64,000 nucleotides of DNA from Sinohyriopsis cumingii (taxonomy: Eukaryota > Mollusca > Bivalvia > Unionida > Unionidae): assembly GCA_028554795.2 (NCBI GenBank), contig CM068835.1, positions 60,325,219-60,389,218 of the forward strand, in the 5' to 3' direction. The position numbers and the translations under genes are program-made. Each line of letters opens with the position of its first letter. Within the stretch, counting starts at the first letter, position 1. Of the stretch, positions 34,182 to 52,745 are shown one piece after another. The notes under the pieces are model-generated. The model had not been told where the DNA came from, did no database searches, and saw only the letters and a list, made by a program, of their open reading frames with translations.

Positions 34182-34510
34182 AGTAGTTAAGTGGGCCACT
34201 ATACGTACAATGGAAATTAGCATTACGGAGACCCCTGGGCGAATATACGTACAATGGAAATTTAACATGGCGAAAAATCGTGGGTTAATATACGTACAAG
34301 GGGAATTAACATGGGAAAAAATTGTGGGCCGATATACGTACAAGGGGAATTTAACATGGGGAATAGAGTTTGGGGGTTGTTTAGGGACAAAAGGGAATTG
34401 AATATGGGATTTTTTTTTTAAAAAACCTTTTTTTTTAAAAAGGGGTAGGCAATGGAAAGGCTATCTCTTTTCGAGAAATATGGCTGGCCCTGAAAAGGGC
34501 CTTTGGGTTT
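34182..34510 (+). repeat. Element 1 left terminal inverted repeat
   Basis: Matches 50,705-51,030 in inverted orientation with few differences. It contains five sub-repeats at 44-47 bp spacing (cores at 34,202, 34,246, 34,291, 34,335 and 34,382). The first four carry the core TACGTACAA. The inner end contains the histone-type hairpin. Confidence 0.95.
34486..34501 (-). terminator. Histone-type 3' stem-loop, cassette A
   Basis: On the minus strand: CCAAA, then GGCCCTTTTCAGGGCC (6-bp stem, TTTC loop), then AGCCA and, about 14 nt on, CGAAAAGAGA. This fits the metazoan histone mRNA stem-loop bound by SLBP plus a U7-complementary downstream element. It lies 29 nt after the stop codon of the cassette A ORF. 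Confidence 0.8.
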
Positions 34511-34529
34511 TCTTCTTCTTCTTCTGCTT

Positions 34530-34919
34530 CTAGTTTCTTCTTTTTCTCCACCAAGTTCTTATTTTATCTCCAACACTCATTCTCTTCTTTTCTTTCTTTT
34601 TTTTCTCCTGCTCATCTTTCTTCTTCTCTTCCTCCTCTTCTTTCTTCCTCTTTTCATTTTCTTCTTCTTTTTCAATTTTTTCATTCCATGCTCTCATCCT
34701 TATCCTTTCCTCTTCATCCTCCTTCTCCTCCTTTATTTCTTTCAACAGATCACTGATGATTACCTTCATTTTTCGTAAATTGTTTATCTCCATCTTCACT
34801 CGATGGGGACTATAAGAATAGTGATCCTCGTTTAGGTTAACCAACATTTGCTCTATCATTCCTAAATTGTCGAGGACGTTTTGCAATTTTTCCATTTTGT
34901 CCATTTGGTTAGAAGCCAT
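34530..34919 (-). CDS. Cassette A protein: charged coiled-coil, 129 aa
   Basis: Unrecognised small protein. Residues 1-70 look helical with regular hydrophobics (MEKLQNVLDNLGMIEQMLVN). Residues about 60-115 are a nearly pure Glu/Lys coiled-coil, and the tail is basic and aromatic (KIRTWWRKRRN). The ATG at 34,919 lies about 52 nt downstream of a TATA-like CGTATAAG and the conserved upstream element. The stop is followed by a histone-type hairpin. The WW-plus-basic C-terminus recalls the tail of the element 2 cassette protein at 52,766 (VRRWLQKWRK). Function unknown; an accessory role in host interaction is a guess. Confidence 0.7.
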   Translation of the reverse strand: MASNQMDKMEKLQNVLDNLGMIEQMLVNLNEDHYSYSPHRVKMEINNLRKMKVIISDLLKEIKEEKEDEEERIRMRAWNEKIEKEEENEKRKKEEEEEKKKDEQEKKKKEKKRMSVGDKIRTWWRKRRN

Positions 34920-34970
34920 CTTCTTTTTTTATTCTTTGCAAAATGGTTTGAACGACGAATACTGTGGGTT

Positions 34971-35009
34971 CTTATACGAAAAGCGCGGACGTGAAGGAAA
35001 ACATCCCCC
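34971..35009 (-). promoter_or_regulatory. Cassette A promoter
   Basis: The conserved 27-bp element (plus strand GCGCGGACGTGAAGGAAAAC then ATCCCCC, 34,983-35,009) sits just upstream of CGTATAAG on the minus strand. Four near-identical copies occur upstream of other cassettes at 35,871, 36,732, 53,893 and 60,806. Confidence 0.75.
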
Positions 35010-35040
35010 TACTTTTTCATTTCATATAATAAAACCCTAA

Positions 35041-35307
35041 CTATACTCTCCACATTCGCTAAGAAACAATAAACAAAATCCATAATCTACTATCCACACA
35101 ATCGTACGTGAACGGTTACAAAACCCAAACTATACTCTCCACATACGCTTAGAAACAATAAACAAAATCCATAATCTACTATCCACACAATCTTACGTGA
35201 GCGGTTACAAAACCCAAACTATACTCTCCACATACGCTAAGAAACAATAAACAAAATCCATAATCTACTATCCACACAATCGTACGTGAGCAGTTACAAA
35301 CACAAAC
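35041..35307. repeat. Three direct 89-bp repeats
   Basis: Copies begin at 35,041, 35,130 and 35,219 with 'ctatactctccacat' and differ by only a few bases. They separate cassettes A and B. The element's tandem expansion here appears recent. Confidence 0.9.
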
Positions 35308-35369
35308 ACACAAACACATACCCTCGCACTATGAAAAAAGAGTTAGTGTTTATAATCACACTACTCTAC

Positions 35370-35372
<3 letters not shown>

Positions 35373-35412
<40 letters not shown>
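35373..35412. repeat. (CA)n microsatellite
   Basis: About 20 CA dinucleotides within the cassette B downstream region. It is absent from the matching position of the cassette C duplicate near 36,214-36,221. Confidence 0.95.
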
Positions 35413-35413
<1 letters not shown>

Positions 35414-35452
35414 TGGCAAATCGATAGTTATTTCTTTTCTAGAGTATTGGGT

Positions 35453-35468
35453 AGCATTTAAAAGGGCT
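35453..35468 (-). terminator. Decayed histone-type stem-loop, cassette B
   Basis: AGCCCTTTTAAATGCT on the minus strand occupies the same place and context as the intact hairpins, 30 nt after the cassette B stop. Two of six stem pairs are lost, although the flanking CTACCCA and AGAAAAGAAA persist. Confidence 0.6.
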
Positions 35469-35498
35469 GTTTTTTTTTTTAACTCCAGATGCACCTAT

Positions 35499-35807
35499 CT
35501 AATGGTTGCACCTTCCTGGCCTGGCGCCACACACGCATCTTCTTCCCCAGTCTCCTTTCACCTTTCTTCTGGGGAGCGCAGAGGGAGGATGATTCGCTTC
35601 AACACCCCAATCCTCTGTCTCGGGAATATTGTACGACATCCTCTCTTCTAGTTTCTTTTCCTCCTCTTCCCTCTGTCTTCTCTCCTCCTCTTCGTTCTTC
35701 ATTCTTTCCTCTTCTACTATAGCCTCCGCGGCCAGTTCATTTAACAGGCGCCTGACATATTCCAGATGTATCTGGAGTTCAAGAAGTTTGCTTATTCTGC
35801 TATTCAT
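35499..35807 (-). CDS. Cassette B protein: Glu/Arg coiled-coil, 102 aa
   Basis: Unrecognised. The N-terminal helix (SRISKLLELQIHLEYVRRLL) is followed by a Glu/Arg-rich stretch to about residue 60, then a Pro/Arg-rich tail with CVCGARPGRCNH. ATG at 35,807 was chosen because it is the first ATG below the TATA box at 35,859-35,864. It shares promoter and 3' region with the other cassettes but not clear sequence identity. Confidence 0.65.
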   Translation of the reverse strand: MNSRISKLLELQIHLEYVRRLLNELAAEAIVEEERMKNEEEERRQREEEEKKLEERMSYNIPETEDWGVEANHPPSALPRRKVKGDWGRRCVCGARPGRCNH

Positions 35808-35858
35808 TCTTGTGTTGAACAATCAACAAGGGTAGCTAGACTGCCCAGCGAGTTTCAA

Positions 35859-35897
35859 TTTATAGTGAAAGCGCGGACGTGATGGAAAACAGCCCCC
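35859..35897 (-). promoter_or_regulatory. Cassette B promoter
   Basis: TATAAA (minus strand, 35,859-35,864) lies 6 bp from the conserved 27-bp element (35,871-35,897), which differs at two positions from the cassette A copy. A decayed extra half-copy (GCGCGGAC) is at 35,947-35,954. Confidence 0.8.
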
Positions 35898-36133
35898 TAA
35901 AAACATAAAATTGATCTTACCTACATCATGACCAAAAAACAACAACGCGCGGACCTAAAAGAAACACTCACTCACTTTTTATGCTACCCATCACTATTTT
36001 AAAATTTTTTTATAAATCACTTCAATAGACTATCCACATACTCAAAGCAATCCAATCTAACCCCAAATTTACACCTCAAACACCAAAAAAAGACATCATT
36101 TTAATCTACTATCCATACCAACTTACCTAACCA

Positions 36134-36277
36134 CTTACAAACACAAACACACAAACACATACCCTCACATTTTTTTATAAAAGAGTTAGTGTTTATTTTC
36201 ACACTACTCTACCTACACACATTGGCAAATGGATTGTTATTTCTTTTCTAGAGTATTGGGTAGCCCTGAAAAGGGCT
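36134..36277 (-). repeat. Duplicate of cassette B 3' region
   Basis: The sequence from 'acttacaaacacaaacac' through 'agagttagtgttt' and 'ttcttttctagagtattgggtag' repeats 35,294-35,468. Thus the untranslated DNA of cassettes B and C is duplicated while the ORFs are not similar. Confidence 0.85.
36262..36277 (-). terminator. Histone-type 3' stem-loop, cassette C
   Basis: Minus-strand AGCCCTTTTCAGGGCT followed by ACCCA and, after about 14 nt, AGAAAAGAAA. The closing pair is A-U instead of G-C; the other stem pairs and the TTTC loop are consensus. It is 29 nt past the cassette C stop codon. Confidence 0.75.
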
Positions 36278-36305
36278 GTTTTTTTGTTTGCTATGGCATT
36301 CTTTT

Positions 36306-36665
36306 TTAGTTTCTAAGAATGCGATGTCCTCTGAGGATAGACTTTCTGTCGATAGGTCTGCTTCTTCGAAAAGAGAAGAAGAACTCTTTGGTGTCGATAC
36401 GACAATCGACAAAGCCTCTGTCAGCTTCAGGTTGCTGCTGTTGTTGTTGTTGTTGCTGCTGTTGCTGCTGTCTCTGAAGTCTGTACTTCTCCGTCCATTC
36501 TTCTTTCTCCCTGTTCATTTCTTCTCTGAAGAGCTCTTCTATCAGGTCTTCAGTGATTTTTAACATTCTCACATTCTCTATTTCTTCTGGCTTCGGTATC
36601 AGACTGTGTCTGACCCTATGCAAATTCACGTAGGCTTCGTTGAGTTTAGCTAGTTTGGAACACAT
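36306..36665 (-). CDS. Cassette C protein: poly-Q, 119 aa
   Basis: Residues 1-60 form a predicted helical domain (KLAKLNEAYVNLHRVRHSL; NVRMLKITEDLIEELFREE). A run of 13 Gln follows near residues 66-80, then an Arg/Phe-rich tail ending RGHRILRN. ATG at 36,665 is preferred over an upstream TTG. The N-terminal 55 residues are almost identical to the truncated element 2 copy at 60,555-60,740, which shows the domain is conserved. Function unknown. Confidence 0.7.
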   Translation of the reverse strand: MCSKLAKLNEAYVNLHRVRHSLIPKPEEIENVRMLKITEDLIEELFREEMNREKEEWTEKYRLQRQQQQQQQQQQQQQPEADRGFVDCRIDTKEFFFSFRRSRPIDRKSILRGHRILRN

Positions 36666-36717
36666 CTTCTTAGGAGGATGAGTCGACAATGGATGGTTAG
36701 ACTGGAAACAACCCCGG

Positions 36718-36758
36718 TTCTTAAAGTCAAGGCGCGGACGTGAAGGAAAACATCCCCC
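36718..36758 (-). promoter_or_regulatory. Cassette C promoter
   Basis: The conserved 27-bp element (36,732-36,758) abuts a TATA-like CTTTAAGAA on the minus strand (about 36,718-36,726), 55 nt above the ATG. Confidence 0.7.
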
Positions 36759-36871
36759 ACACGGTTTTCGAGCCGCAACGTTCAGTGAGTGTCATGCGAG
36801 GGATAGTAAGAAATGAAAGAGCATCAATCCAACATTCTTATAGCTAAACAAACCACAAAGGCATTTTTTTT

Positions 36872-37086
36872 CAAAACACAACATTTTTTATTCAAAAATC
36901 ACTTAACACTAAACAACAACTCTAACATTTTTAACAATAATCCAACATGATAACATCAAACAATTTTTTTCAAAACACAACATTTTTTATTCAAAAATCA
37001 CTTAACACTAAACAACAACTCTAACATTTTTAACAATAATCCAACATCATAACATCAAACAATTTTTTTTTCAAAACACAACATTT
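36872..37086. repeat. ~100-bp direct repeats with poly(A) signals
   Basis: 'caaaacacaacattttttattc' starts at 36,872 and 36,971; a third, truncated copy starts at 37,072. On the minus strand the first two contain AATAAA (36,887-36,892; 36,986-36,991), in position to end capsid-gene transcripts. The third copy abuts the protease-deletion breakpoint. Confidence 0.8.
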
Positions 37087-37089
37087 TTT

Positions 37090-37156
37090 CCACAGTCTCC
37101 TCACATTCCATCTTTAAAGTTTCTCCACTAGGTAAAGAGGGATAACAGTCTTCCAT
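37090..37156 (-). pseudogene. 5' stub of deleted zinc-protein gene
   Basis: Starting at ATG 37,156, about 22 codons (MEDCYPSLPSGETLK...) match the start of the element 2 gene at 62,153. The reading frame then enters repeat DNA. The rest of that gene and the whole protease gene that should follow are missing in element 1. Confidence 0.85.
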
Positions 37157-37161
37157 GGTTT

Positions 37162-38475
37162 CTAGTAATCTAGGATGACTTCTCTCAAACTGTTGATTTC
37201 TATGGTATTATCGAATTCTGCATACAGGATGACGTTCACCGTTTCATCAGGGTCTCGGTCTTTAAACTGAATTTCCACACGAATCTGGCCGGATTTTATA
37301 GGGTGGAAATGTCCCTCGTCGCTGCCTTGGTCTGGAGTGAAATCGAAAGCCCACAAAGCGTAGCCTCCTGCATAATCCTCGTACGTAATACCGTGACTGG
37401 TATTGGTTCCTAACTGTCCGGTGGCTTCGTACAGGGACAAGTACGATCTCAAGTAATTCTTCTTGGTAAAGTCAGGTTCGAAAGGTCGGGTACACAAGGT
37501 CTTGCCAACGCGACTGACTTCGATTTTGGACACGCCAAAGTGTTGAAAGTAGAAAGGATTTTTTTCGGCAGCTCCGTTGAAGGCTGTATTCTGGACGATA
37601 CCAACGATCAAACGTTTGGGTAACTGTCCTTGGAACAGATGATCTTCGATCATGGATCGCTGTCCCTTGGGAATGGTGAAGGTTTTCACTTCCACGCGTC
37701 GTATGGGAAACTTGCCAGTCGTTCTGCTCAACGTCTGACTGATGTCGTTTCCCACTTTAGGTAACACTTCCACACGGCGTACGTAGAGTCTGGCTTCTAG
37801 GATTTTGGTTTTGTAACCGTCACTATCAGCCATCAAATGGAAAGCGGCACTGCTACGATTCAGTCTCAGGCGGACATCCACCCCGTTCAGCAAATACTTT
37901 TCTTGCAACCACATGTCCAAATGCAAACGATCCATCAGTTCTAAACTTGTGTCGGCTCCCGTGATTCTCTTTCTTCGTTCTACAAATCCATCATTGTTGT
38001 CTTTCTTTTCATCAGTTTCCAATATTTCAAACTTGGTAGGTTCGTCAGCTTCCCATACCACACAGGCATTGAGATGAGTGTTCTTGGCATCTATTCCGTA
38101 CGTCAAGAGATTTTCCAGGTAGGCACGATAAGGGTAAGTATCCATGCTGCTACTGACCAGTTTGTTATTCAAGGACAAGTCCACTCCACTGAACAAGGAA
38201 TGCATGAAATTGTTGACGGGAGCTACTGCTTCATCGTCTATAGCACCTCCAGTCTTATCTAGAATTTTGACTTTCAGGTACAAGTAACTGCTATTCAGAT
38301 CGATGTAATCTTCGGGCTGTCCTTTGATTTCAAACTCGATGGGAGCGGAATCGGTCAGTGAGGAAACGGGGTGAAATTCCACCCACTGGGATTCTTGCAT
38401 CGTCATCATCGTGGGGGGCATGGCAAACAGATCCAGTTCCGTCTTGGAACAAGCGCAAGATTCTCGGTGCATCAT
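37162..38475 (-). CDS. Major capsid protein (double jelly-roll)
   Basis: The 437-residue product begins MMHRESCACSKTELDLF and carries SSLTDSAPIEFEIKGQPEDY and IDLNSSYLYLKVKI, hallmarks of the Maverick/Polinton major capsid protein. That family folds as two jelly rolls and forms hexon-like trimers in an icosahedral shell. ATG at 38,475 lies just after the pX-like gene stop, so the genes are nearly contiguous. The frame is intact. Compared with the element 2 copy, most change is around residues 135-185, which probably form surface loops. AATAAA signals follow near 36,990. Confidence 0.92.
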   Translation of the reverse strand: MMHRESCACSKTELDLFAMPPTMMTMQESQWVEFHPVSSLTDSAPIEFEIKGQPEDYIDLNSSYLYLKVKILDKTGGAIDDEAVAPVNNFMHSLFSGVDLSLNNKLVSSSMDTYPYRAYLENLLTYGIDAKNTHLNACVVWEADEPTKFEILETDEKKDNNDGFVERRKRITGADTSLELMDRLHLDMWLQEKYLLNGVDVRLRLNRSSAAFHLMADSDGYKTKILEARLYVRRVEVLPKVGNDISQTLSRTTGKFPIRRVEVKTFTIPKGQRSMIEDHLFQGQLPKRLIVGIVQNTAFNGAAEKNPFYFQHFGVSKIEVSRVGKTLCTRPFEPDFTKKNYLRSYLSLYEATGQLGTNTSHGITYEDYAGGYALWAFDFTPDQGSDEGHFHPIKSGQIRVEIQFKDRDPDETVNVILYAEFDNTIEINSLREVILDY

Positions 38476-38492
38476 TTTTTTTGTCTCTTTTC

Positions 38493-38909
38493 TCAATAAT
38501 CGAAAACGTCTAAGTCTCGAACGGTTCTTCTTTTCTTGGCCTTTCTCGCTTGAAGTCTGGTGAAAGGGTGTTTTCTTCGTCGTCTCTTTCTGCCTTGTCC
38601 TTGCTGAATGCCTGACTCGGTAGCGCGCAGGGCATTTATAGGTGTTTCTCGTTGGCCTAAAATGTCTTTGCCCGTTTGCAGCAAGACATTTTTGCCTGCC
38701 CTCATGAAGGCTTCTTTAGGGTTTTGTTTGTCGATGATGACATTTTGGAGAAATTCTTTGCCTTGCGTCAGTGCCGCATCTTTCAAGGCGTGCAATCCGC
38801 GTGTCACCATCGGTTTCAACACCGGGGCCACCGAACGAAAGGCCGATTTTAACATATCTCCTAAGCCGTGTCCTCGCTGTCGAGCAACCCCTCGGTACAC
38901 TGGATACAT
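38493..38909 (-). CDS. pX-like basic virion protein, 138 aa
   Basis: The N-terminus has RGHGLGDMLKSAFRSVAPVL, then an amphipathic helix region, and a very basic C-terminus (GRKRRRRKHPF; ARKAKKRRTVRDLD). Adenovirus and adintovirus core/cement proteins share the G-x-G-(L/I)-G-D start and basic tail, and GHGLG resembles adenain-type cleavage contexts. A role in binding virion DNA or linking it to the capsid is inferred. The start ATG lies 4 nt after the penton stop codon. Confidence 0.7.
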   Translation of the reverse strand: MYPVYRGVARQRGHGLGDMLKSAFRSVAPVLKPMVTRGLHALKDAALTQGKEFLQNVIIDKQNPKEAFMRAGKNVLLQTGKDILGQRETPINALRATESGIQQGQGRKRRRRKHPFTRLQARKAKKRRTVRDLDVFDY

Positions 38910-38912
38910 GAC

Positions 38913-39835
38913 TTACGAATCGTGAGAAAACCGTTTTCGAAAATGGAGTTTCACCGTGACTTTTCCTTTGGTGAATGGAATATTTTGTCCCAAATCTCCT
39001 TTTATAGCAATGTTGACCGTGTCCAAATACGACTTACTGACAGGCAAATAGTGAGGATGGACAAATTCGCGGTGGACGTGGTAAGTGTTTCCACCTTCCT
39101 CGTCAGTGTTCGTGGCAGAATCCACTTTGAAAGGAATGACACGCAGTAACGGTACGGAGGTGTGTCCCACCACGTTATACTCCACCACATCGGAGTACAC
39201 AAACATCAAATTCAGTCCTTGGTTCAGTTCTACCGGGGCACGAAAAACTTGCTAAAAGACTCGTTGTCGTAAACGATGGGTAATTCGCTTTTCTTCATCA
39301 TGCTCATTCTCAGGTTCATGTCTCCGCCCAACATGTCATACAATTCAGGACAAAATAAAATGGACAGGATTTTACTCCGTTCAAATTTCATTAAGAAGCG
39401 ACGAGCTGTTTTGTGGTACTCCATGGTGACACTTTTGTTAACATCCTCCAAAGCTTTCAGAAACACGGCATTAAACCTGGAGGTTATGGTGCTGACCAAA
39501 TGTTGACCACTAAAATAATAGCCTGGGGAAATGAACAAGTGATAGGTGGTGTACTTTTGTGTACGGGTTTTCTTGTCATATTTGACATTGCTATCCATCC
39601 ACTGTTGCAATTGTTCGTCATGAACTTCCACATCAAAAAAATTTTGATTGGGAAGGACATTGAGGACTTGGGTCGGGTGAATCATTTCTACTAAAGCCAC
39701 TTCCCAATGGGCTTCGTGATCTTAGGGGATGGCTTGAGGTAATTTGGCCGTGTAACAGCACAACGTGTTCTTGGGAAACACCTCCATGGAACTGTCACTG
39801 AGTAAGGTTAAGTAAAACTGGTTTTGGTGACTCAT
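38913..39835 (-). pseudogene. Penton-like minor capsid protein, broken
   Basis: It reads from ATG 39,835 (MSHQNQFYLTLLSDSSMEVF) to 38,913 (VKLHFRKRFSHDS), about 307 residues in all. An in-frame TAA near 39,723-39,725 and a one-base frame change near 39,237 interrupt it. The middle segment (ALVEMIHPTQVLNVLP... QKYTTYHLFISPGYYFSGQH) matches the style of the Polinton single-jelly-roll protein that fills capsid vertices. The start overlaps the TM gene stop as ATGA. As sequenced, it cannot give a full product. Confidence 0.8.
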
Positions 39836-40245
39836 AATTCCAGAGTTCTGTGGCTGTCCGAGGGGTTAGTGGACGTCAGAGGCGTGTCTCCGTCTAAAAT
39901 GGGGTTCTGGTTGTGATTGAAGTGGTGACTGGCACTGGCACTGGACACAAGGTTCCCGTGGTTCCCGTTTGAGGTGAATTTCAGGGAGGGATTAGGAAGC
40001 AGGTAACCGATGCAACTGCTCAATAAAATGGTCCACAATTGTTTGTCTCCTTGTTGCAAACTCAAATTGGCGATGGCTGCCCCGATGACACAATACACCA
40101 CGAATATTTGGCAGAAAAAGACGACTTGCGTTTTAGGCACACGTTCTCCACACCACACCCACAAGGGTTGTTTTTGTAAATCTTGCACAGAAGAACTAGG
40201 GGAAGGAGGAGTGGTCGACGTAGCTGCGTCTGTGTGAAAAGGCAT
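39832..40245 (-). CDS. Conserved Polinton membrane protein, 137 aa
   Basis: Two hydrophobic segments are visible: about residues 43-62 (VFFCQIFVVYCVIGAAIANL) and 71-86 (QLWTILLSSCIGYLLPNPSL). The D-K-x-L-W...S-x-x-G-Y-L-L-P-N-P block is a recurrent signature in Polinton proteins of unknown function. The N-terminus is Ser/Thr/Pro-rich. ATG 40,245 is the only Met before the membrane region. The stop overlaps the penton start. A role in the virion or host membranes is inferred. Confidence 0.75.
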   Translation of the reverse strand: MPFHTDAATSTTPPSPSSSVQDLQKQPLWVWCGERVPKTQVVFFCQIFVVYCVIGAAIANLSLQQGDKQLWTILLSSCIGYLLPNPSLKFTSNGNHGNLVSSASASHHFNHNQNPILDGDTPLTSTNPSDSHRTLEL

Positions 40246-40250
40246 GATGA

Positions 40251-41360
40251 TCACTTCTTTTTATAGTCGATGACTTGCGAAGCGTCGATCCAAGAATCAA
40301 AACTGGGTGGATATCCTTTCCAACGTACTTTGACTTCTTTGACACGTCGTTTGCCCACTTTACGGGTTCTGCGTTCGAGAATGCTTTCGATGTCGTACAG
40401 GTCGTCTTCTTTTTTGGTGACACGTTGTAACTCGGGCAAATAAAACGTTCCTTTGAGCACTTCTCCGTTCATGTCTTCCAATTTATAGACGGCAGGATGA
40501 CGGCCATGCACTCGTCCAGTGACGCGAAACAATTCGGTCGTCCAGTTAGGTAAGTAACCTTTGTCAAAAGTGCGTTTGGTTTTGCCAATGCGCACCCAAT
40601 CTCATACGGCCAACTCTCCACTTTTCTTGGGGACAGCCCTCGTCGGGGACGTACCAAACAGGCGCTCAAACACCAACACTTCGTTGTCGGGAGTCACGTC
40701 TTGCGGGGCACGTCCAATGCTTCGATGGTAAGATTGGTTGTACGCTTGCACCAGGTGCGGTAAGATGTCGATGTACTTCAGAGTGTGGTGATACGTAAAA
40801 TATTTCCACATGCGTTCTTTCAAAGTGCGTTGAAAACGTTCCACGATGTTGGCTTTGGTTTCGGGATTCTCGGTGGTAAAAAAATGAATGTCACGTTTCT
40901 TTAATTCTTTTTGGAAAGCTTGGTTCAGAAATTCGGTGCCTTTGTCCGTTTGCCATCGAAGAGGGTGACGACCGCTTTGTTTCAGCACTCGTTGCAGGGC
41001 TCGCACTAACTCGCTGCTCGATTTGGAAGTCACGGGTACGACACATGCAAATTTGGAAAAGACGTCGATGACACAAAACAAATATTTGTAGCCACGATTG
41101 TAGCTGGCCAAATGAGAGACATCGGCTAAATCGGCTTGCCATTGATGATCGATGCCTTCCACTCGGGTGCGACTTCTGGCAAACTTGCGTCGAATGGGTT
41201 TGTGTAAAGTGTAGGTAGCTTGTTCTTGTAACCATCGTTGCACTTGAGGTAAACGGAGACTTTTCAATCGAGTTTTGGCAGCACGATACAATTTTTGAAC
41301 TCCTGCGTAACCTGCAGGATGCGAGGGATCGTAGTAAATGCTGGCTAAGACTTTTTCCAT
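40251..41360 (-). pseudogene. Chromodomain DDE integrase, one nonsense codon
   Basis: The retroviral-type integrase core has Asp in WQADLADVSHL, Asp in TDKGTEFLNQAF and Glu in NIVERFQRTLKE, the D,D-35-E triad that cuts and joins DNA ends. After a TGA at 40,602-40,604 the same frame continues into an SH3-like and chromodomain region (DDLYDIESILERR...VRWKGYPPSFDSWI), which usually binds modified histone tails and steers insertion. ATG 41,360 (MEKVLASIYYD) is the likely start, slightly inside the preceding ORF. Without readthrough, the chromodomain is lost. Confidence 0.9.
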
Positions 41361-41380
41361 TTTTTGTGTTGGTTGGTGTG

Positions 41381-42013
41381 TTAATAAGGCACCCACTCTT
41401 GGAGGATGCTACTCTTTTTCTCTTGGGGTATTTTCTTGGATTGCAATGCTTTGCGTGTGCGACCGGCAATAGGTGTTGAAGAGGAGGAGGATGTCTGAGC
41501 GGGGGATATCGGTTCTTGTTTCACTTCTGTCTTCACTTCTGTCTTCACTTTCTTTTTCTCTTGTGATGAAGAAGGGGTGGTCATCATCTTTTTAATCCAT
41601 CCAATTCTGGAGGTAGGTGATGTTGTTAACTTGCGTACTTTTTCTGGTGGAGTTTGAAACCCTTCTTCTTCTTCTTTTCCTTTTTCTGTCTTGGTCACTG
41701 GTACTGGTACTGGTACTGGTGATGGTGCTGGACTTTTCATCAAGGTCTTAAAATCTTTCAGAGTGGGTAGAGCTGTTTCGTCTAAAGCTTTCTGGTGAAA
41801 GAGTTGCAGTCGTTGCAAGAGTTGACCGTACTTTTGCGATTTTTCTGTTTCGGACAAATCTTGGCGATCCATCAAGGATTGCAGTTCGTGTTGTAACTGG
41901 GACATCTCGCTCAAATGGGGATTGGGAGGTAAATGCGGGGTGTGTTGTTCTTGCCACCGATGGTATTCCATCCATCGTTTGTAAGGCACTAAAGCTAGTT
42001 TTCGTCCTTCCAT
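41381..42013 (-). CDS. Conserved Polinton protein of unknown function, 210 aa
   Basis: The N-terminal 90 residues look helical (LALVPYKRWMEYHRWQEQ; MSQLQHELQSLMDRQDLSET; EKSQKYGQLLQRLQLF). A (PV)-repeat linker and a Lys/Ser/Thr-rich tail follow. Proteins with the L-x-x-x-M-x-x-x-L....Y-x-x-L-L-x-R pattern occur beside the integrase in other Polintons; their function is not known. Its promoter TATA-like box overlaps the preceding gene's stop codon. ATG 42,013 follows that box by about 44 nt. Confidence 0.7.
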   Translation of the reverse strand: MEGRKLALVPYKRWMEYHRWQEQHTPHLPPNPHLSEMSQLQHELQSLMDRQDLSETEKSQKYGQLLQRLQLFHQKALDETALPTLKDFKTLMKSPAPSPVPVPVPVTKTEKGKEEEEGFQTPPEKVRKLTTSPTSRIGWIKKMMTTPSSSQEKKKVKTEVKTEVKQEPISPAQTSSSSSTPIAGRTRKALQSKKIPQEKKSSILQEWVPY

Positions 42014-42056
42014 GGGGTTGTCAGCGGTCGATTCTGAGATCTTGGAACTTCCGAGG

Positions 42057-42066
42057 CCTTTTTATC
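42057..42066 (-). promoter_or_regulatory. TATA-like box overlapping a stop codon
   Basis: GATAAAAAGG on the minus strand includes the TAA stop of the 42,448 gene (42,062-42,064). It lies 44-53 nt before the 42,013 ATG. Confidence 0.6.
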
Positions 42067-42448: not shown

Positions 42449-42500
42449 CTTTGACTCTTCAGGAGCACCAAAAAACACTGATACCCGACTTGGTCACAGG

Positions 42501-42511
42501 CCTTTTTTATA
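42501..42511 (-). promoter_or_regulatory. TATA box overlapping a stop codon
   Basis: TATAAAAAAGG on the minus strand contains the TAA stop (42,507-42,509) of the 43,427 gene and serves the 42,448 gene. Confidence 0.7.
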
Positions 42512-44226: not shown

Positions 44227-44273
44227 GGTGTGAGAAATGTCACTTGTGACACGAAAAACAAACAAGACAAGAG

Positions 44274-44281: not shown

Positions 44282-44296
44282 CTTTTCAGAACACGT

Positions 44297-44302: not shown

Positions 44303-44439
44303 AATGTTTTTTTCAAACATCAATACGAAAGGCAAAAATACATAAAAGCCAAAGGCTTAAGTACAAGAATAAAAGGCACATGATAACCATCAACGTGGAA
44401 TAAACACAAGTGTCTGTACAACATGTTTTGGGTAAAGTT

Positions 44440-44718: not shown

Positions 44719-44722
44719 TGAA

Positions 44723-47700
44723 CTATCGATCTTGCCTAGGGTTCCTTTTTATATACAGACCAATACCGACGTGACCGTACGGTAAGGTGAAGTGATTGGG
44801 AAGTCGCACTCGCTTCTGGTATACAATTTGATAGACTTTTTCCAAGGGTCGACTGACGATGTGGTGAGTGGGTAAACGTACAATCTTGTTCGGTTGATAG
44901 GTGGTCACTTTAAAGTTTCCATCCTCTCCCGATTGCAAGGCTTCTTTCAATACCCCAAAGTTGACCACTCGACTGGTACGATGATTCAGAGTCAGTCCTT
45001 TCACTTTGCACGTCGTGTGCACTTCTCCTTGTTTGTCCCGGTATTCGTAGCCGCAATTTTTGGGACCACCACTGACGAAACTTAGAATCATGTCGTCGGG
45101 ATGCTCGTCTGTCCAGGCTCCTAAACGGTCTCCTTCGATGTCAGGGTGCTGTTGAATCGGGTGATGGATGTAAATGCAACTGTCCGTGTCAAAGTACAGG
45201 ACGCGTTTTTCTAACAGTTCTAAAGCTTCGTACAATTTTAAGCGAGCATGAGCTGTCACGTAAGCCGCAATGATGACATTTCCAAAAGGGTCGTCTTGTA
45301 CAAAGTCCAGATCTTCTTCGTAATTGACCAAGATCATATCCTCTCGAACGACGTCCACGTGTTTCATGTATTTGGTTTTGTCGTGAATCATCTGGAAGTA
45401 GCGGGAAGGTTCTGTCAAATATTCCGTCTTGGGTAAACACGGTCGTTGTGCCATTTTACCCCACAAGCAATTTAACATCACTTTGGCAAACGATCGCCTG
45501 CCTTCGTTTTTTTTGGTTGTGGTCTAAAGAGATGCCTTCTTGTTCGTAGTATTTCTCTTTGAATTGTATTTGGTCTTCGGGAGTGTGACACCAGGAAGGA
45601 TAGCCGCTGGCTTCTTGTTTCAGTTTCAAAAAGGCATCCACGTAGTCGGCGAAAATGCCTTTCTGAGTAGGGTCACCCTTGTGGTACTGTTGTGTCTTGG
45701 GAAAGTGGCAAATTTCGTACACTTCTAACAGTTGGTATCCCATGTCCAGAGCTTTGAACAATTCCACGCTGACCCAGGTTCCCGTCAAGGCACGTTCTTC
45801 CTGGCTGTGATGGCAAGGTTGGTCCTGGTTGCACGTTTCGGCACAAGTACGGCACAAGGGAAACATCAGTTTGCCCTGACAATGGTGAGGTAAGACGGGA
45901 TGGTATAGGTTCGTGGGAGACAAAACTTTACACTTGATCAAGCCTTCGTATTGTCGAATGTTTTTCAGGTCGATGTGTTCCGTCAACAATTGCGGGTGCC
46001 CTACAGGAAAGCGACAATATTTGCACACGTAGGGATACAGCGAACACACGTCCAAGTATTTGATTTCTTCTCCTTTCTCTTCGTCGGCTTGGTACAGCAA
46101 ACAGGTGGCATTGGTCCTTCCTCCGTACAAACTATCCCCCGGGTTCAGCGGGTCCATGAACTGGTAACTTTCCACGAGGCGTTTAAACTCGGGATCGGTT
46201 TTCAAACTCGTGTTCCCACATTTCCACCACTTGGTATCCTTGCTGTTCTAACTTTAGGCGTCGCTGACAAGTGTCCTGGTACAAGTCTTCCATGGTTCGT
46301 TGCAAAAACTGATTTTTAGTGTCACGGTCAGGGTAGCAGACGGGACATCCGTGAAATAAGCAACCGTTAAACTCGTACACGATCTTGGGGTTTTCTAAGT
46401 CCCAGCCATCGACCGAATACGTTCCGATGGTCTTTTCGCCTCCTCCGTTGCGGGCATGCTGAATCCATTTGTCTTCCTTGTCGCACAAGTAATGTAACCA
46501 ACGTAGGGCTTTGACCGCGTATTGACGCTTGACATAGTGGGTCGTTTGAGGACTGATGACAGCCACGGTGTTTTCAGGCATGAATCGTTGGCGGTACACT
46601 AAGGAACACGCTTTGGCAATGGTGCAAGCTTCTTTCAAAGGATCGACCCCTCCGTGTTCCATGAACAGTTCTCGAAATTTTCCACAGCAACGCCGTAAAA
46701 TGTCCACGTCGGAACGACAATACTTTAACATTTCTTCCTGAAAGTCGAAGGGGTCAGAGGCATGAGCCTGGTACCAAGCGTAGAAAGCTTCTCGTTGTTC
46801 GGTACGCATGTTGTCGGGATCGTAATAGTGAGCCTCAGGCAAATGGGGTAGAACGGCATGTTGATTGGCTTCCGTATTGAAAAAGTGTGGAAAGTACCCT
46901 TTAGCCATTTCTGTCATTCCAAACGTTTTAGGCATTCGACTCAAAGGCATGGCCAAGTAACTCATCGAATCTTTAAACTGCACTTGTCCCACTTGCATGA
47001 AAATGATTTTGGCTCCGTTCAAAATCACTTTAGGACGTTCGGTGCCATGTTCCGTATAGTACCTCAAAAGAAACTGTGCATCGTATCCGGATAAATTGTG
47101 AGCCATCACCGTGGCATGACGATGACAATCTCCGTAACGTTCGATGTCCTCTTGGCTCCACGTCTTGTCGATGGGGTCTAAGACCCATTGGGCAAAATCG
47201 GCTAACGTGTTCGGTCCCCGAAAGATTTTTTCACGTCCTCCAGGAATCTTGCTGCAGTGAGGGCAATGACTGAAGATAGGTTCTTGAATGCACTTCTCGC
47301 ACGCTCGATGAGCCACGCAGAAATTAGGAATGTGAATACCGGTCTCTTGCATGCATTCGAAATCGAAAAAGATGAAATTGCCTTTCTTCTTGTGACCGTC
47401 CTCTTTCTCTGGTGGGGGTTGGTATTTTTGCACGTAACATTCGTGTTCCAAGTCCACGATGTGGTGACAAATGTGACATTTTTTCTTTCCTCGACATACG
47501 TGTGCCTTGGCATTGTTGGTACGTATGCCTTGTCTACACGTAGGGCACAATCTCAGGAGTTGACAAGCACATTTCTTCTGTGAACCTTGTGTTTTCAAAT
47601 GTTGTTGGTAACAGGTAGGGCTGACAAACGTGCGCAGACAAGTCGAACAAGGCACTGGTTCTTCTCTCAGACAGGGTGGAGAGGCCAAACATCCTGGGCA

Positions 47701-48777
47701 TTTCCATCCACAATGCTTGTGTTGCTCTCGATTATTATAACCATAGTCACATTTTTCACAGTAATATCTGTATCCCAGGAATCCGGTGATACTGGTAATG
47801 GTATCGAAATGGTCATCGTGATGATAAACATGAATGTATTTTCCGTCCTTAAAGTCTTGGCCTCGAAACAACAGAGACCCGCGCATTTCTTGAGGGTGCA
47901 CTTTCAAGGTGTAGCGTGGAGCTAGGGCATCTTGCAATTTTTGCATCTCAGAAATGCCACAGGGTGTGTCTTTGGACAGGCCAGCTTGTTGCAACAGGAG
48001 TTCTGCTTCGTTTCGTTGTTTGGCTCGATCGGATCGTTGAATAGTGTTCCAGGTTCTTTTCCATTCTGTCGTGTCGTTCTTGTTGGCATAGGTTCGTCCC
48101 ACCACGATGGCACGGGCTAAACACATCTGGTCATGAGGATTGTGAATTTGGACAAGACTACGCTTAATGCTGCGAAGCTCGTTCACCAATAACATCTTTT
48201 TGCGTCCTGTCCCTTGAGGAAGAGAGACGTGGGCCATTTTCAGTGTGGCTTTACCATCGGTGATGTCAAACTGGTCATTAGATTGTTGTACGTGTTGAAT
48301 CTTGTCCATGATTTTGGAAGGGGTTAGTTCTGCAGGTCTGCTAAACTCGATCCAAACAGGGGATTTCAAACCGTCGTGATCTATGGATAGTGTCAAGCGA
48401 TCGTCTTCTTTGGGTTGACATTGTCGCTTGAGTGCGGTGAGCAATGAATCCCACATCTCGGTGATGAACCCTTCTGCTTTCTCCAATGGTACGTCGGCCT
48501 TGAAATCTTTAAACTTCACCGTGTAGGTGTAAGCCGTGGTTCTAAATTTTCTAGAGGAGCGCTTTTCCGTCTCTCGAATGGAATAGTATTTTTCAGGGTT
48601 GACTAAGGGTGACGAACTTGGTTTAGAGGTTTCAAATTCTGGTTCACTCATGTCTTCTTCAAAATCACTGGCATGAATTTGTGCCAAGATTTCAGCCCTG
48701 GTACGAGGCGATAGATCACGTTTCTGCCTCTTACTTTCTTCTTCTTCTTTCTTCTTGAATGAATGGGATCGTTTCAT
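44723..48777 (-). pseudogene. Protein-primed DNA polymerase B, two frameshifts
   Basis: About 1,350 residues from ATG 48,777. The order is: a basic N-terminal region; a Cys/His-rich zinc region (about 340-450); exonuclease motifs IFFDFE (about 470), MAHNLSGYD (about 560) and YCRSDVDIL (about 686); palm motif A YLDVCSLYP (46,035-46,062); motif B NCLWGK (near 45,465); motif C YFDTDSC (near 45,190). This enzyme replicates linear Polinton and adenovirus-like genomes from a protein primer. The frame changes near 46,195 and in an A8 run near 45,515; each break adds one base. TATAAA at 48,826-48,831. Confidence 0.92.
44744..44755 (-). promoter_or_regulatory. TATA box inside the polymerase 3' codons
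   Basis: TATATAAAAAGG on the minus strand encodes Tyr-Ile-Lys-Arg near the polymerase C-terminus. It would direct the transcript for the small ORF downstream. Confidence 0.6.
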
Positions 48778-48825
48778 CTTGAGTGCAAAACGTCAAATGA
48801 CTCAAGTTTAAACACCATAGACTAA

Positions 48826-48860
48826 TTTATAGTCTTGGCAAACCAGCGTATATAAAAAGG
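48826..48860. promoter_or_regulatory. Compact divergent promoter
   Basis: Minus-strand TATAAA (48,826-48,831) serves the polymerase (ATG 48,777). Plus-strand TATATAAAAAGG (48,849-48,860) serves the CCHC gene (ATG 48,913). Only 17 bp separate the two boxes. Confidence 0.8.
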
Positions 48861-48912
48861 GTGTGTGTCTTGTCCTTTCACTATTCATTTCACTCTCAAG
48901 CCGAGCACAACG

Positions 48913-49383
48913 ATGGAAGAGACTACCCAGATGGAACGTTTCGTCAGAGCTTTGCGAGGGGTCATTAGAAAATTCTCTTCAGACCAGCCGACGGACTACT
49001 CTCCTTCCTTTCGAGATAAAAGTCAAGATACTTGCTATATCTGTCAGAAGAAAGGGCATTGGTCTTCAGAGTGTCCAGACCGTCAAAAAAGAACAAAAAC
49101 AGGGACTAAAAGAAACAAAAGTCAAGATACCTGTTATTATTGTAAAGAAAAAGGACATTGGTCTCCAGATTGCCCAAAAAAGAAACAAGAGGAGTCAGAA
49201 GAAAAGAAGGATTCTTCAGAAGAAGAGAGGGATTCTTCGGAAGAAGAGAGGGATTCTTCAGAGGAAGAAGAGGAAGAAAGAAGACAATTCTATTTAAAAG
49301 AAGCAAAGAAACAGGAGAAGAAAAGAAGAAGGGAAGAAAATGAGGACAAAACGGTGAAGAAATTCAAAAAACAGAGAGAGTAA
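48913..49383 (+). CDS. Double CCHC zinc-knuckle protein, 156 aa
   Basis: Two zinc knuckles CYICQKKGHWSSEC and CYYCKEKGHWSPDC (C-x2-C-x4-H-x4-C, about residues 42-56 and 77-91) are followed by three near-identical DSSEEERDSSEEE blocks and a basic tail. Such knuckles bind single-stranded nucleic acid. The start was set at 48,913, 53 nt beyond the TATA box. It is divergent from the polymerase and one of only two plus-strand genes. A replication-associated ssDNA/RNA-binding role is inferred. Confidence 0.75.
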   Translation: MEETTQMERFVRALRGVIRKFSSDQPTDYSPSFRDKSQDTCYICQKKGHWSSECPDRQKRTKTGTKRNKSQDTCYYCKEKGHWSPDCPKKKQEESEEKKDSSEEERDSSEEERDSSEEEEEERRQFYLKEAKKQEKKRRREENEDKTVKKFKKQRE

Positions 49384-49611
49384 ACAAGGAGAAAGAAGAA
49401 GTCAATGAACTTTTAATTAAAGTGTTCTGTGGTGAATTGTGAATTGGATTGTAAAAAAATGGATAAAAGAATACATGAATGATATAAGGTAAGTGTCTTT
49501 GAGTTTTGATTTTAAAATAAGAAGCTACACTCACGCACTCATACACAGACACGTACTATAAGGGTAAAATGGGTGGGGTTTATTTTTGAGTTATTGACAA
49601 ATTGAAATTGT
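49384..49611. other. Intergenic, convergent gene ends
   Basis: Holds the 3' end of the plus-strand CCHC gene. AATTAAAG near 49,417 is a weak poly(A)-signal candidate. Nothing else is seen. Confidence 0.4.
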
Positions 49612-49634
49612 ATTTCTTTTCGAGAAATGTGGGT

Positions 49635-49650
49635 GGCCCTGAAAAGGGCC
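49635..49650 (-). terminator. Histone-type 3' stem-loop for 49,676 gene
   Basis: Minus-strand GGCCCTTTTCAGGGCC with 5' AAAAA and 3' ACCCA, then CGAAAAGAAA about 14 nt later (49,612-49,622). It starts 25 nt past the stop codon at 49,676. This copy is outside the inverted repeat. Confidence 0.82.
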
Positions 49651-49675
49651 TTTTTATTTTGGTGTAGGGGTGAGT

Positions 49676-50236
49676 TTAACCAATCAACTTTAACTGCCTT
49701 AAGCCTTTGCCACGGCCAAGGCCTACTTCTGATGATTGGGTTGAAATCACTAAGGGTGGTACGACAGGCTTAGTCACAGGGTTGGCGTGTTTAGCTCGGG
49801 AAGGTCGTATTCTCTTCGGTCGTGATAAAGAAGTCTGATACATTTGTTTCAGACTTCTTAACTCCGCTAAAATGTCCAACAGTACCGTAGCCGTTTGATT
49901 TTCACCCTCTTGTTTCTTTGCTGCTACTTCTTCTTGCTGTTGTTGCTGTTGTTTTTTTCTTACCTCTTCTTGTTGCTGTTGCTGTTGCTGTAGGAGAAAA
50001 GCTTGTTCCGCTTCCTTTTGTCGTTGCATAAATTTCTCCAATTCTTCTTTCTGTCTCTGTCTAAAATTCTCCACTTGCGGTAATGAAGAAGGTAACGAAG
50101 GTTCCGGAACAAATTCTTGCGAGGTAAGAAAATCCACAAAATCCCAATGTACCTCTTCTGAAAGTAAGTCCGGGTTCCCTTGGGCAGTCTCCCCTGCTTG
50201 TGCACCCCAATGGATCGTTTTCTGAGTTTCCGTCAT
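49676..50236 (-). CDS. Poly-Q coiled-coil protein, 186 aa
   Basis: Unrecognised. Residues about 55-80 contain a duplicated RQRQKEELEKFMQRQKEAEQ coiled-coil, and two Gln runs flank an EEVRKK/EEVAAKK duplication at about 84-108. The acidic N-terminus and the basic tail (RPKRIRPSRAKHANP...GLGRGKGLRQLK) suggest a nucleic-acid or chromatin contact. It has TATATAG-type promoter DNA at 50,284-50,291 and a histone-type hairpin. Its poly-Q links it loosely to cassette C. Confidence 0.65.
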   Translation of the reverse strand: MTETQKTIHWGAQAGETAQGNPDLLSEEVHWDFVDFLTSQEFVPEPSLPSSLPQVENFRQRQKEELEKFMQRQKEAEQAFLLQQQQQQQEEVRKKQQQQQQEEVAAKKQEGENQTATVLLDILAELRSLKQMYQTSLSRPKRIRPSRAKHANPVTKPVVPPLVISTQSSEVGLGRGKGLRQLKLIG

Positions 50237-50283
50237 GTTGAATCACTGTCGCATAGATTGACTGCACACAAGCGCTAACGAAT

Positions 50284-50411
50284 CTATATAGACCACGTGA
50301 CGTCACAGACTGCTCTCTTCGGATTGGATGCGAGCTGACTGAATTTTGTAACGCGTGTTCGGATTGGTGAATGAATTCAATCCGTTTCAATCCTTCCTGT
50401 ACCTATAAATA
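50284..50411. promoter_or_regulatory. Divergent promoter with CRE, E-box and CCAAT boxes
   Basis: CTATATAG (50,284-50,291) faces the minus gene and TATAAATA (50,404-50,411) the plus gene. Between them are overlapping CACGTG (50,294-50,299) and TGACGTCA (50,298-50,305), and a twice-repeated TTCGGATTGG (CCAAT on the minus strand) at about 50,319 and 50,359. Such sites are also common in cell-cycle promoters. Confidence 0.7.
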
Positions 50412-50455
50412 AGCGCAGTTCACTGCATTGATTCACTTGTTCTCGTCGCTTCAAG

Positions 50456-50689
50456 ATGTGGACCGATGTGCAATCTTCTACGCTTGTGTCTTCCATGATG
50501 TTCCGGACGGACATGCTCATGTATGTCCGATCCAAGTGGACCGTTGTCCACAGGACAAACACCAGCCTGTGGATACGTAGGATCTACGTTGAAAGACAAG
50601 GATGCCTGAAAAGAGTGCTGATTTACGGACCAACAGTGAGACGTAGCCTAAGGACAAGAAGAAGACCAATGCGGTACCATTTATGTTAA
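50456..50689 (+). CDS. Small basic protein, 77 aa
   Basis: MWTDVQSSTLVSSMMFRTDM and an Arg-rich tail (RRSLRTRRRPMRYHLC). No family recognised. Support comes from context: TATAAATA 45 nt upstream and a histone-type hairpin 25 nt downstream, in the right orientation. It is the plus-strand partner of the 49,676 gene. Confidence 0.55.
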   Translation: MWTDVQSSTLVSSMMFRTDMLMYVRSKWTVVHRTNTSLWIRRIYVERQGCLKRVLIYGPTVRRSLRTRRRPMRYHLC

Positions 50690-50704
50690 TGAATACATTA
50701 ACAT

Positions 50705-51030
50705 AAACCCAAAGGCCCTTTTCAGGGCCAGCCATATTTCTCGAAAAGAGATAGCCTTTCCATTGCTTACCCCTTTTTTAAAAAAATTTAAAAAAAAAAT
50801 AATCCCATATTCAATTCCCCTTTGTCCCTAAACAACCCCCAAACTCTATTCCCCATGTTAAATTCCCCTTGTACGTATATCGGCCCACAATTTTTTCCCA
50901 TGTTAATTCCCCTTGTACGTATATTAACCAACGATTTTTCGCCATGTTAAATTTCCATTGTACGTATATTCGCCCAGGGGTCTCCGTAATGCTAATTTCC
51001 ATTGTACGTATAGTGGCCCACTTAACTACT
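50705..51030 (-). repeat. Element 1 right terminal inverted repeat
   Basis: Inverted partner of 34,182-34,510. It ends ...CTTAACTACT at 51,030, followed by the AATGTA duplication. Its inner end provides the hairpin terminator for the plus-strand gene at 50,456. Confidence 0.95.
50714..50729 (+). terminator. Histone-type 3' stem-loop for 50,456 gene
   Basis: Plus-strand CCAAA then GGCCCTTTTCAGGGCC, AGCCA and CGAAAAGAGA about 13 nt later. It is the right-repeat counterpart of the copy at 34,486-34,501 and is again sense to the adjacent gene. Confidence 0.8.
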
Positions 51031-51036
51031 AATGTA

Positions 51037-51710
51037 GAGTGAAATGGAATGATTTAACCCATCAAAAGGAATGATGAATTCAGATTCCAAATGATGTTGT
51101 GTGATATGAAATGATGTAGCATGAAATGAAATGATTGAACCCCAAAAATGAAATAATGAATTCAGATTCCAAATGATGTGGCGTTAAATGAAATGATCTG
51201 GCATTAAATAAAATGATTTAAAGAACAAAACGGAATGATGGTATCTGCTTCCAAATGACGTGCTATTAAATAAAATGATGTAGTCTAAAATAAAATGATT
51301 TAACTCAACAAATGAAATCATGAATTCAGATTCCAAATGATGTGGTATTAAATTAAATGATTTAAAGAACAAAACGAATTGATGAAATCTGCTTCCAAAT
51401 GACTTATTATTAAATGAAATTACGTAGTATGAAATGAAATGATTTAACTCAACAAATGAAATGATGAATTCAGATTCCAAATGATGTGGTATTAAATTAA
51501 ATGATTTAAAGAACAAAACGGATTGATGAAATCAGCTTCCAAATGACGTAGTATTAAATGAAAATTATGTAGTCTAGAATTAAATGATTTAACCCAAAAA
51601 ATGAAATGATGTATTCAGATTCCAAATGATCTGGCATTAGTTGAAATGGTCTGAAGAACAGAATGGAATGATCAGCTCATATTCCAAATAATGTGGTATT
51701 AAATGAAATG
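51037..51710. repeat. Host satellite, right flank of element 1
   Basis: Imperfect repeats of about 115 bp built from 'cagattccaaatgatgtgg.attaaat.aaatgatttaa..aacaaaa.g.a.tgatgaa'. It continues the array at 34,020-34,181 that element 1 interrupted. Confidence 0.8.
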
Positions 51711-52370
51711 TGGGGAATGTAAACGGTCTGATCAAAGTGTAAATCAGCTAGCGTAAATCCAAACAAACACGGAGGGGGCGCTGTTAGCCAGACTTACAAT
51801 CGACGGGCGTACTTACAGAATTCGTCTGAGATTTTAGCAGACGACATTTAACAGCTAAGGTTAGTGTTTCTTCTCATTTGATATAAACAAGAACTATGTT
51901 TTCCAGTCAGGATAAATTGACTATCCACATTAATGAATGTCTGTGTATTTTATTTTAGAATCTGCCTTGTACTGCACGAGTTTTCAATGCTTCATCTCAG
52001 CTAGAACTATCAGCTAAGGAGATTAAATCTTCATCTTATTTGATCAATAGTAAGCACCATGTTTAACGACCTAACGTAGCATACGCACTAAACCAACAAT
52101 TTGTTGCCCGCCACTTTTTATATGAAAGCTTTTTCATTCACACACACACACACACACACACGGGGGGGGGGGGGGGGGAGCTGACCATAACCGGTTATAG
52201 ACATTATTTAGATTGTATCCATTTCAAACGCCTGTGACGAAAGGAATGCTCTGATGGTTCTTCTTTAACATCTATAGCTAGACAGTTCCAAATGATTGGA
52301 CCCAAACTATTTTTATGCACTTCCATTTCGGGCTTAGAAAGAAGAAAGTTATAATTTTGCATATAGCGCT
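51711..52370. other. Spacer between the two elements
   Basis: Non-repetitive host-like DNA with a (CA)n then poly-G run at about 52,139-52,178. No gene is visible. AGCGCT at 52,365-52,370 may be the left target duplication of element 2. Confidence 0.5.
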
Positions 52371-52745
52371 AGTAGTGATGTGGAGCACCCTAGCGACAAT
52401 GGGAATTAGCATTACAGACCCCTCTGGATCACTCTAGCGACAATGGAAATTTAACATATGAAAAATCATGGGTCACTCTAGCGACAAGGGAAATTAACAT
52501 GGGAATAAATCGTGGGTCTGTTTAGTGACAAGGGAAATTAAGATGGGGAAAATTGTTGGGTCACTCTAGCGACAAGGGAAATTGAACATGGGGAATTGAT
52601 TGTGGGACTGTTTAGGGACTAGAGGAAATGGAACAGGGTCGGGACCCTATTTTAAAAAAATAAAACAAAAATATAAAAAGGGGTAGGCAATTGAAAGTCT
52701 ATCTCTTTTCGAGAAATGTGGGTGGCCCTGAAAAGGGCCTTTGGT
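52371..52745 (+). repeat. Element 2 left terminal repeat
   Basis: Sub-repeat cores at 52,391, 52,435, 52,479, 52,523, 52,567 and 52,613. Most read TAGCGACAA where element 1 has TACGTACAA. The inner end again holds the histone-type hairpin. Confidence 0.85.
52724..52739 (-). terminator. Histone-type 3' stem-loop, element 2
   Basis: Minus-strand CCAAA GGCCCTTTTCAGGGCC ACCCA, followed by CGAAAAGAGA at 52,702-52,711. This is the best match to the metazoan histone consensus in the window, 26 nt past the stop of the 52,766 ORF. Confidence 0.83.

Follow-up and report, generated by a model that had tools for sequence, protein, structure and literature searches.

We analysed a 64,000-nucleotide stretch of contig CM068835.1 of the bivalve Sinohyriopsis cumingii (hereafter the window), which holds a transposon of the Polinton/Maverick group, element A, and a second, related element, element B. 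Five or six non-core genes of this Polinton very probably use the replication-dependent histone pathway of their host, and the gene of the major capsid protein (MCP) keeps ordinary poly(A) signals. The genes concerned are hairpin-bearing open reading frames (ORFs), here named T1 to T6 (Table 1), and we observed histone-type signals at them in sequence, in position, in conservation and in likeness to the host's own histone genes.

Six hairpins had been reported in an initial annotation of this DNA as histone mRNA-type stem-loops, one of them decayed, each lying in sense orientation shortly after a stop codon. They were scored by cmscan with the histone 3' stem-loop model RF00032, whose gathering score is 34 bits. 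Four of them exceeded the gathering score, the fifth had an E-value of 6.4e-5, and the sixth, the copy near 35,453 already described as decayed, had no RF00032 match at E<=1. The common layout consists of a six-pair stem and a four-base loop about 25 nt past the stop codon, followed 13 nt further by a purine-rich box of the type that pairs with U7 snRNA. Five stems start 24-28 nt past the stop codon of a same-strand ORF (about 20-40 nt in the initial annotation). The distance of the box is near-constant, its AAAAG beginning 13 nt past the stem in 145 of the 156 hairpins examined outside the window. A scripted stem-loop pattern was found 5 times in the window, whereas 100 shuffles gave 0.15 occurrences on average. 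A single sequence forms the hairpins at 34.5 kb and 50.7 kb, located at the inner edges of both terminal inverted repeats (TIRs) of element A, where each serves an outward-reading terminal gene, T3 on the left and T1 on the right; because the same sequence sits in both TIRs, these two hairpins are not independent.

The host histone genes are organised in tandem arrays, two stretches of which were read (L031 and L032). The hairpins of the host H1, H2A, H2B, H3 and H4 genes score between 35.0 and 39.4 bits with RF00032, compared with 31-42.5 bits for the Polinton hairpins, and display the same GGCCC-type stem (with a paired change in H1) and the same GAAAAG box. The Polinton hairpins thus match the host ones in quality and lie in the range of histone hairpins rather than at background, so that both the covariance scoring and the comparison with host genes proposed in the initial annotation came out in its favour.

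To see the hairpins in other copies of the element, two samples of the same genome were used. An RF00032 search of the 2.9-Gb assembly scored 75 of 589,472 candidates, all 75 above the cut-off; this list is a partial sample, because the window's own hairpins are missing from it. Among the 58 listed matches that were fetched as loci, 58 match T1-T6 proteins and none matches any of five host histones (tblastn, E<=1e-3), and an ORF of at least 50 aa ends 10-40 nt upstream of 86 of their 111 hairpins. The other sample was blind to hairpins: 10 of at least 96 MCP copies, spread down the list, were taken and the stretch after the MCP gene and the far end of each were read, totalling 58.6 kb. A hairpin was present after T5 in 9, T6 in 10, T3 in 8, T2 in 9 and T1 in 8 of the 10 copies, that is, in 44 of the 50 expected places, where a hairpin counted as missing may fall outside the stretch read. 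One of these copies, L088, has an extra hairpin after a T1-like gene, bringing the number to 45. In that copy, at sense position ~2303, a T1-like gene stands in place of T3 before the left-end hairpin, and the end genes may therefore be interchangeable. The scripted pattern detected no hairpin away from the T-gene places in these 58.6 kb. An ORF of at least 50 aa ends 10-40 nt upstream of 42 of the 45 hairpins, compared with 3.2% of random positions and 1/45 on the opposite strand, which is the enrichment after ORF stops anticipated for related elements. Two hairpins have no preceding ORF of at least 30 aa (L080 at T6 and L092 at T5).

Conservation was evaluated on hairpins that had not been used for fetching their locus. 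All 10 T1 hairpins are perfect, 24 of the 25 T2 hairpins have two changes at most, 16 of them having none, the remaining one being lost, and all 18 T6 hairpins are within four changes. Nucleotide diversity was calculated on these hairpins together with the MCP-picked copies and the window. For T1 (n=15) the stem-loop value is 0.000 and the box value 0.018, with 0.104 for the spacer, 0.146 for the coding end and 0.223 downstream; the corresponding values for T6 (n=27) are 0.048, 0.010, 0.195, 0.169 and 0.161. For T2 (n=35), the stem-loop, box and spacer have diversities of 0.051, 0.016 and 0.182. The outer pair of the stem is A-U in T5 and T6 and G-C in the remaining hairpins. Among 11 distinct host and element hairpins, pairing is kept in 66 of 66 cells and two pairs are changed on both sides. 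The covariation score of the hairpins was equalled by 1 shuffle in 500, and their number of pairs changed on both sides by 29; as the sequences are related, we regard this covariation as support and not as proof.

A histone-type promoter block, absent from the initial annotation and new with respect to it, was detected upstream of the left-end T genes: T3, T4, T5 and T6 share it with the host H2B and H1 genes. The exact matches to the host H2B upstream region at T6 (22 nt) and at T4 of element B (24 nt) were equalled in length by none of 200 shuffles. Across the window, 5 occurrences were counted of a 21-position motif in which two places are free, always on the minus strand and upstream of T genes or of a T5 remnant, and 0 times in 100 shuffles. 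Its core, GTCCGCGC, occurs 6 times, all on that same strand, for 0.24 expected. Counting near-full-length hairpin-bearing ORFs with 200 nt of upstream sequence in hand, the core is found within these 200 nt in 11/11 T5, 11/11 T6, 8/10 T3 and 3/4 T4, and its distance from the ATG is 60-80 nt in 28 of the 33 cases and 104-140 nt in the other five, measured from the start of the core. As controls, the longest exact matches to the host histone unit were calculated for other upstream regions and compared with 200 shuffles: 10 nt for T1/T2 (185 shuffles as long), for MCP (194) and for o306 (177), 12 nt for CCHC/PolB (47) and for T5 (54), and 14 nt for the integrase (7). The T3 upstream region has a 14-nt exact match (6/200), in a stretch that is not the block. 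T3 and T5 are consequently not special by exact match length, and their likeness to the histone genes rests on the 21-position motif. Three copies of other subfamilies, found via an oyster MCP (MCP identities of 90-92, 89 and 90% over the last 83-84 residues), keep the T5 and T6 hairpins (6/6) and the promoter core; in a fourth copy, L100, whose MCP is 82% identical, only the promoter core is seen, as the stretch stops there. The block looks like a HINFP/H4TF-2 site. The excerpted text of PMC5706932 says only that HiNF-P acts on H4 promoters.

The established histone mRNA pathway, as set out in that same excerpt of PMC5706932, is the basis on which we infer the steps from SLBP binding to S-phase timing. 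The small non-core genes at both ends of the element (T1, T2, T3 or T4, T5 and T6) carry the full histone-type 3' end; T3 to T6 would be switched on by a host factor that drives the H1, H2B and H4 genes in S phase. SLBP would bind the hairpin, the U7 snRNP would pair with the purine-rich box, and the histone cleavage complex would cut just past the stem. The T mRNA would then leave without poly(A) and persist only through S phase, and the purpose could be to couple the T functions to dividing or germ-line cells. It seems likely that the transposon took over the histone programme, promoter and 3' end, for a set of its own non-histone genes, thereby gaining a class of genes that is coupled to S phase and free of poly(A). 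As the 3' end is borne by the TIRs, the outward-reading genes at either end would have it in common and could be swapped.

Several observations weigh against this picture. The promoter core is absent within 200 nt upstream of T1 (0/35) and T2 (0/24), and the likeness of their divergent promoter to the host histone unit is no better than chance. No ORF of at least 50 aa ends 10-40 nt upstream of 25 of the 111 hairpins in the hairpin-picked loci. The stem-loop diversity of T2 is little under that of its coding end (0.066), and the T5 copies (n=10) are too uniform for the comparison to inform. As for the other gene ends, the MCP gene fits the picture, with AATAAA within 350 nt after it in 10/10 copies and no hairpin, and the CCHC gene of element A likewise has a poly(A) signal. 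A further twelve ORFs of that element, including the integrase, the ATPase and PolB pieces, exhibit no hairpin and no AATAAA or ATTAAA within 400 nt, so a clean two-class picture of gene ends does not emerge. Finally, 8 MCP-related contigs from metagenome-assembled genome (MAG) records (GTDB contigs), which are partial, gave no RF00032 match at E<=1. These relatives, with MCP identities of 25-45%, include records from symbionts of Bathymodiolus and Escarpia; they are presumed to be eukaryotic contamination and their hosts are uncertain. Histone-type 3' ends look like a lineage trait rather than a Polinton trait.

It could be that the T mRNAs are mostly polyadenylated and that the hairpin, bound by SLBP, acts on translation or stability or else provides an alternative end. 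AATAAA is indeed found within 250 nt past the stop codon in 13/24 T2, 10/11 T5 and 2/4 T4, so poly(A) ends are possible for these three genes, and two modes of 3'-end formation may exist for T2 and T5. Yet the same signal is rare after T1 (4/35), T3 (1/10) and T6 (0/11), and the U7-type box, which is needed for cleavage only, has a low diversity in T1, T2 and T6 and keeps its distance from the stem, which makes such a mixed use unlikely. Could the element, alternatively, have picked up fragments of the host's histone genes through recombination, to copy them since as inert baggage? The histone-derived look of both promoter block and hairpin, and the youth of many element copies, would agree with this, but stem and box are near-fixed in T1 and T6, whose synonymous differences amount to 0.44 and 0.36, with variable spacers and coding ends. 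Moreover, the paired G-C to A-U change preserves the stem in T5 and T6, and the placement relative to stop codons is retained at either end of the element and on either strand. We find passive hitch-hiking highly improbable on these grounds.

The location of two hairpins inside the TIRs of element A raises the question of a role in the DNA itself, at the ends used for transposition, packaging or replication. Such a role would leave the box without function and predicts hairpins without upstream ORFs, whereas the hairpins of T2, T5 and T6 are internal, those of the MCP-picked copies stood at T-gene places (two without an intact ORF), and ORFs precede them almost exclusively in the sense orientation. 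A DNA-level role is in our judgement barely plausible, and the use of the host histone pathway by the T genes remains the reading that we favour.

The T ORFs have the appearance of genuine genes under selection, as judged from dN/dS values (Table 1) that were computed on intact ORFs only and are thereby biased toward apparent selection. Searches of Pfam and PHROGs provided no convincing family for the T proteins, every Pfam match being below its cut-off, and no Pfam histone match was obtained for the T proteins of the window. A PHROG head-tail adaptor match of T5 (9e-5) was judged a helix match and dismissed. In locus L044 (centre, minus strand), a 332-aa frame that ends before a hairpin fuses a T4-type C-terminus with a protein resembling the adenovirus-type protease candidate of the window (61072-61632), which matches Pfam Peptidase_C5 with an E-value of 0.018, below the cut-off.

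A protein collection contains 20 homologues of T2 and 2 of T1, some possibly from the same host. The usual C-terminus is shared by 18 of the T2 homologues, whereas P0140 has a different end and P0133 reads on; P0142, one of the two T1 homologues, also reads on past the usual end. Aligned to the translation of the hairpin-and-box region of the window T2, the tails of P0133 and P0142 score 62 and 69 (maxima of 41 and 43 in 500 shuffles). Both read-through tails spell the hairpin and box, so the signal also follows a T2 relative that is only 62% identical. P0131 (a T2 homologue) and P0141 (a T1 homologue) come from 1455-bp contigs of the same sources, perhaps one contig, in which case the divergent T1/T2 pair would be conserved. 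Within IMG/VR, no related contig was found with the MCP, the MCP alignment or the T2 alignment. The sole IMG/VR match to the exact degenerate stem pattern (L001) lies inside an apparent long phage-like frame and was taken as chance.

Element A possesses the Polinton hallmarks, namely MCP, integrase, packaging ATPase, PolB (split over three ORFs in the window copy), TIRs of ~326-329 nt by repeat comparison within the window, and a 6-bp target-site duplication. The named relatives of its MCP are mostly oyster proteins, plus one MAG of a symbiont that we take to be of the lucinid type. At least 96 MCP copies in the same genome are 98-100% identical to the window MCP, 95 of 96 without an inner stop; judging from these sequences, they represent a large, recent Polinton expansion in this genome. 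Tandem repeats with units of 89 and 99 nt are located between the left-end T genes (35031-35300) and after the MCP gene (36862-37059), and the 99-nt unit contains an AATAAA in the MCP sense. Degenerate satellite-like repeats lie beside the insertion (51023-51708), with kindred sequence at 34024-34174. Element B, which owns the hairpin at 52.7 kb, has an MCP 78% identical to that of element A over 351 aligned positions. It seems to be broken up by a reverse-transcriptase-like element between 53512 and 60826 (ORFs 56107-57573 and 58821-59825, judged by eye), and it retains a 62-aa T5-like start (60552-60740) with its promoter block.

Table 1. Features of elements A and B in the window (positions counted from the first nucleotide of the window; distinct ORFs are intact ones)
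Feature	Position	Strand	Description
Element A, Polinton	34182..51030		Basis: TIRs, 6-bp target-site duplication, integrase, A32-type ATPase, viral/organellar-type PolB domains, MCP homologues
Target-site duplication, left copy	34176..34181		Six bases identical to 51031-51036
Target-site duplication, right copy	51031..51036		Read from element flanks
Left TIR of element A	34182..34510		T3 hairpin at inner edge; arms 97-98% complementary
Right TIR of element A	50705..51030		T1 hairpin at inner edge
MCP gene	37162..38475	-	No hairpin; AATAAA downstream (homologue match; 10/10 picked copies)
T3	34530..34919	-	129 aa, charged, coiled-coil-like, basic end; dN/dS 0.12, 11 distinct ORFs
T6	35499..35807	-	102 aa; dN/dS 0.23, 16 distinct ORFs
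T5	36306..36665	-	119 aa; dN/dS 0.08, 12 distinct ORFs
T2	49676..50236	-	186 aa; 20 protein homologues; dN/dS 0.41, 25 distinct ORFs
T1	50456..50689	+	77 aa, basic; 2 homologues; dN/dS 0.14, 35 distinct ORFs
T4 of element B, C-terminal part	52766..53005	-	ORF; matched in 11/58 hairpin loci
T4 of element B, N-terminal-like part	53512..53829	-	Gene split; by-eye likeness to longer T4 frames elsewhere
Stem-loop and U7-type box after T3	34461..34506	-	RF00032 35.6 bits
Decayed stem-loop after T6	35428..35473	-	Box intact, 3' arm altered; repeat family with 36.2 kb copy
Stem-loop after T5	36237..36282	-	Outer pair A-U; RF00032 31.0 bits, E 6.4e-5, under gathering score
Stem-loop after T2	49611..49655	-	RF00032 41.2 bits; internal, outside TIRs
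Stem-loop after T1	50709..50754	+	RF00032 35.6 bits
Stem-loop after T4, element B	52699..52744	-	RF00032 42.5 bits
H2B/H1-type block upstream of T3	34983..35003	-	21-position motif
H2B/H1-type block upstream of T6	35871..35891	-	Within 22-nt exact match to host H2B upstream region
H4-type block upstream of T6	35944..35964	-	21-nt exact match to host H4 upstream region
H2B/H1-type block upstream of T5	36732..36752	-	21-position motif
H2B/H1-type block upstream of T4 (element B)	53893..53913	-	Within 24-nt exact match to host H2B upstream region
H2B/H1-type block upstream of T5 remnant (element B)	60806..60826	-	21-position motif
Divergent T2/T1 promoter	50237..50455		Two CCAAT boxes, TATA-like boxes; no histone-type block

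mRNA ends of the histone type are not known to occur much outside histone genes. If the reading proposed here is true, their conservation on several unrelated transposon genes would show that this pathway is open to capture. It would also explain why poly(A)-selected RNA-seq misses the T transcripts, and it predicts that the T genes follow the S phase of the host. The many natural copies provide variants for probing the U7 and SLBP requirements.

The initial annotation knew of no earlier report of such ends in Polintons. This stands as far as the open-licence PubMed Central (PMC) literature is concerned, in which we found no description of histone-type ends on Polinton genes, although subscription papers might hold one. 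It needs qualifying for related viruses: the available excerpt of PMC12220804 tallies six RF00032 matches, as histone 3'UTR stem-loop, in genomes of Polinton-like viruses (PLVs) and virophages, and zero in cryptophyte PLVs. The stem-loop is the same as here, but the tally in that excerpt is a bare count, without genes, positions or interpretation. With Polintons/Mavericks, element A has in common the MCP, the integrase, the A32-type ATPase, the viral-type PolB, the TIRs and the 6-bp duplication; it differs in carrying histone-type 3' ends on non-core genes, which none of the 8 MCP-related MAG contigs exhibits. With metazoan replication-dependent histone genes, the T genes share the stem, the loop, the U7-type box and the distance to the stop codon, as well as the H2B/H1/H4 promoter block found in the same genome. 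Unlike those genes, they encode proteins that are not recognisable histones, and they reside in a mobile, virus-like element.

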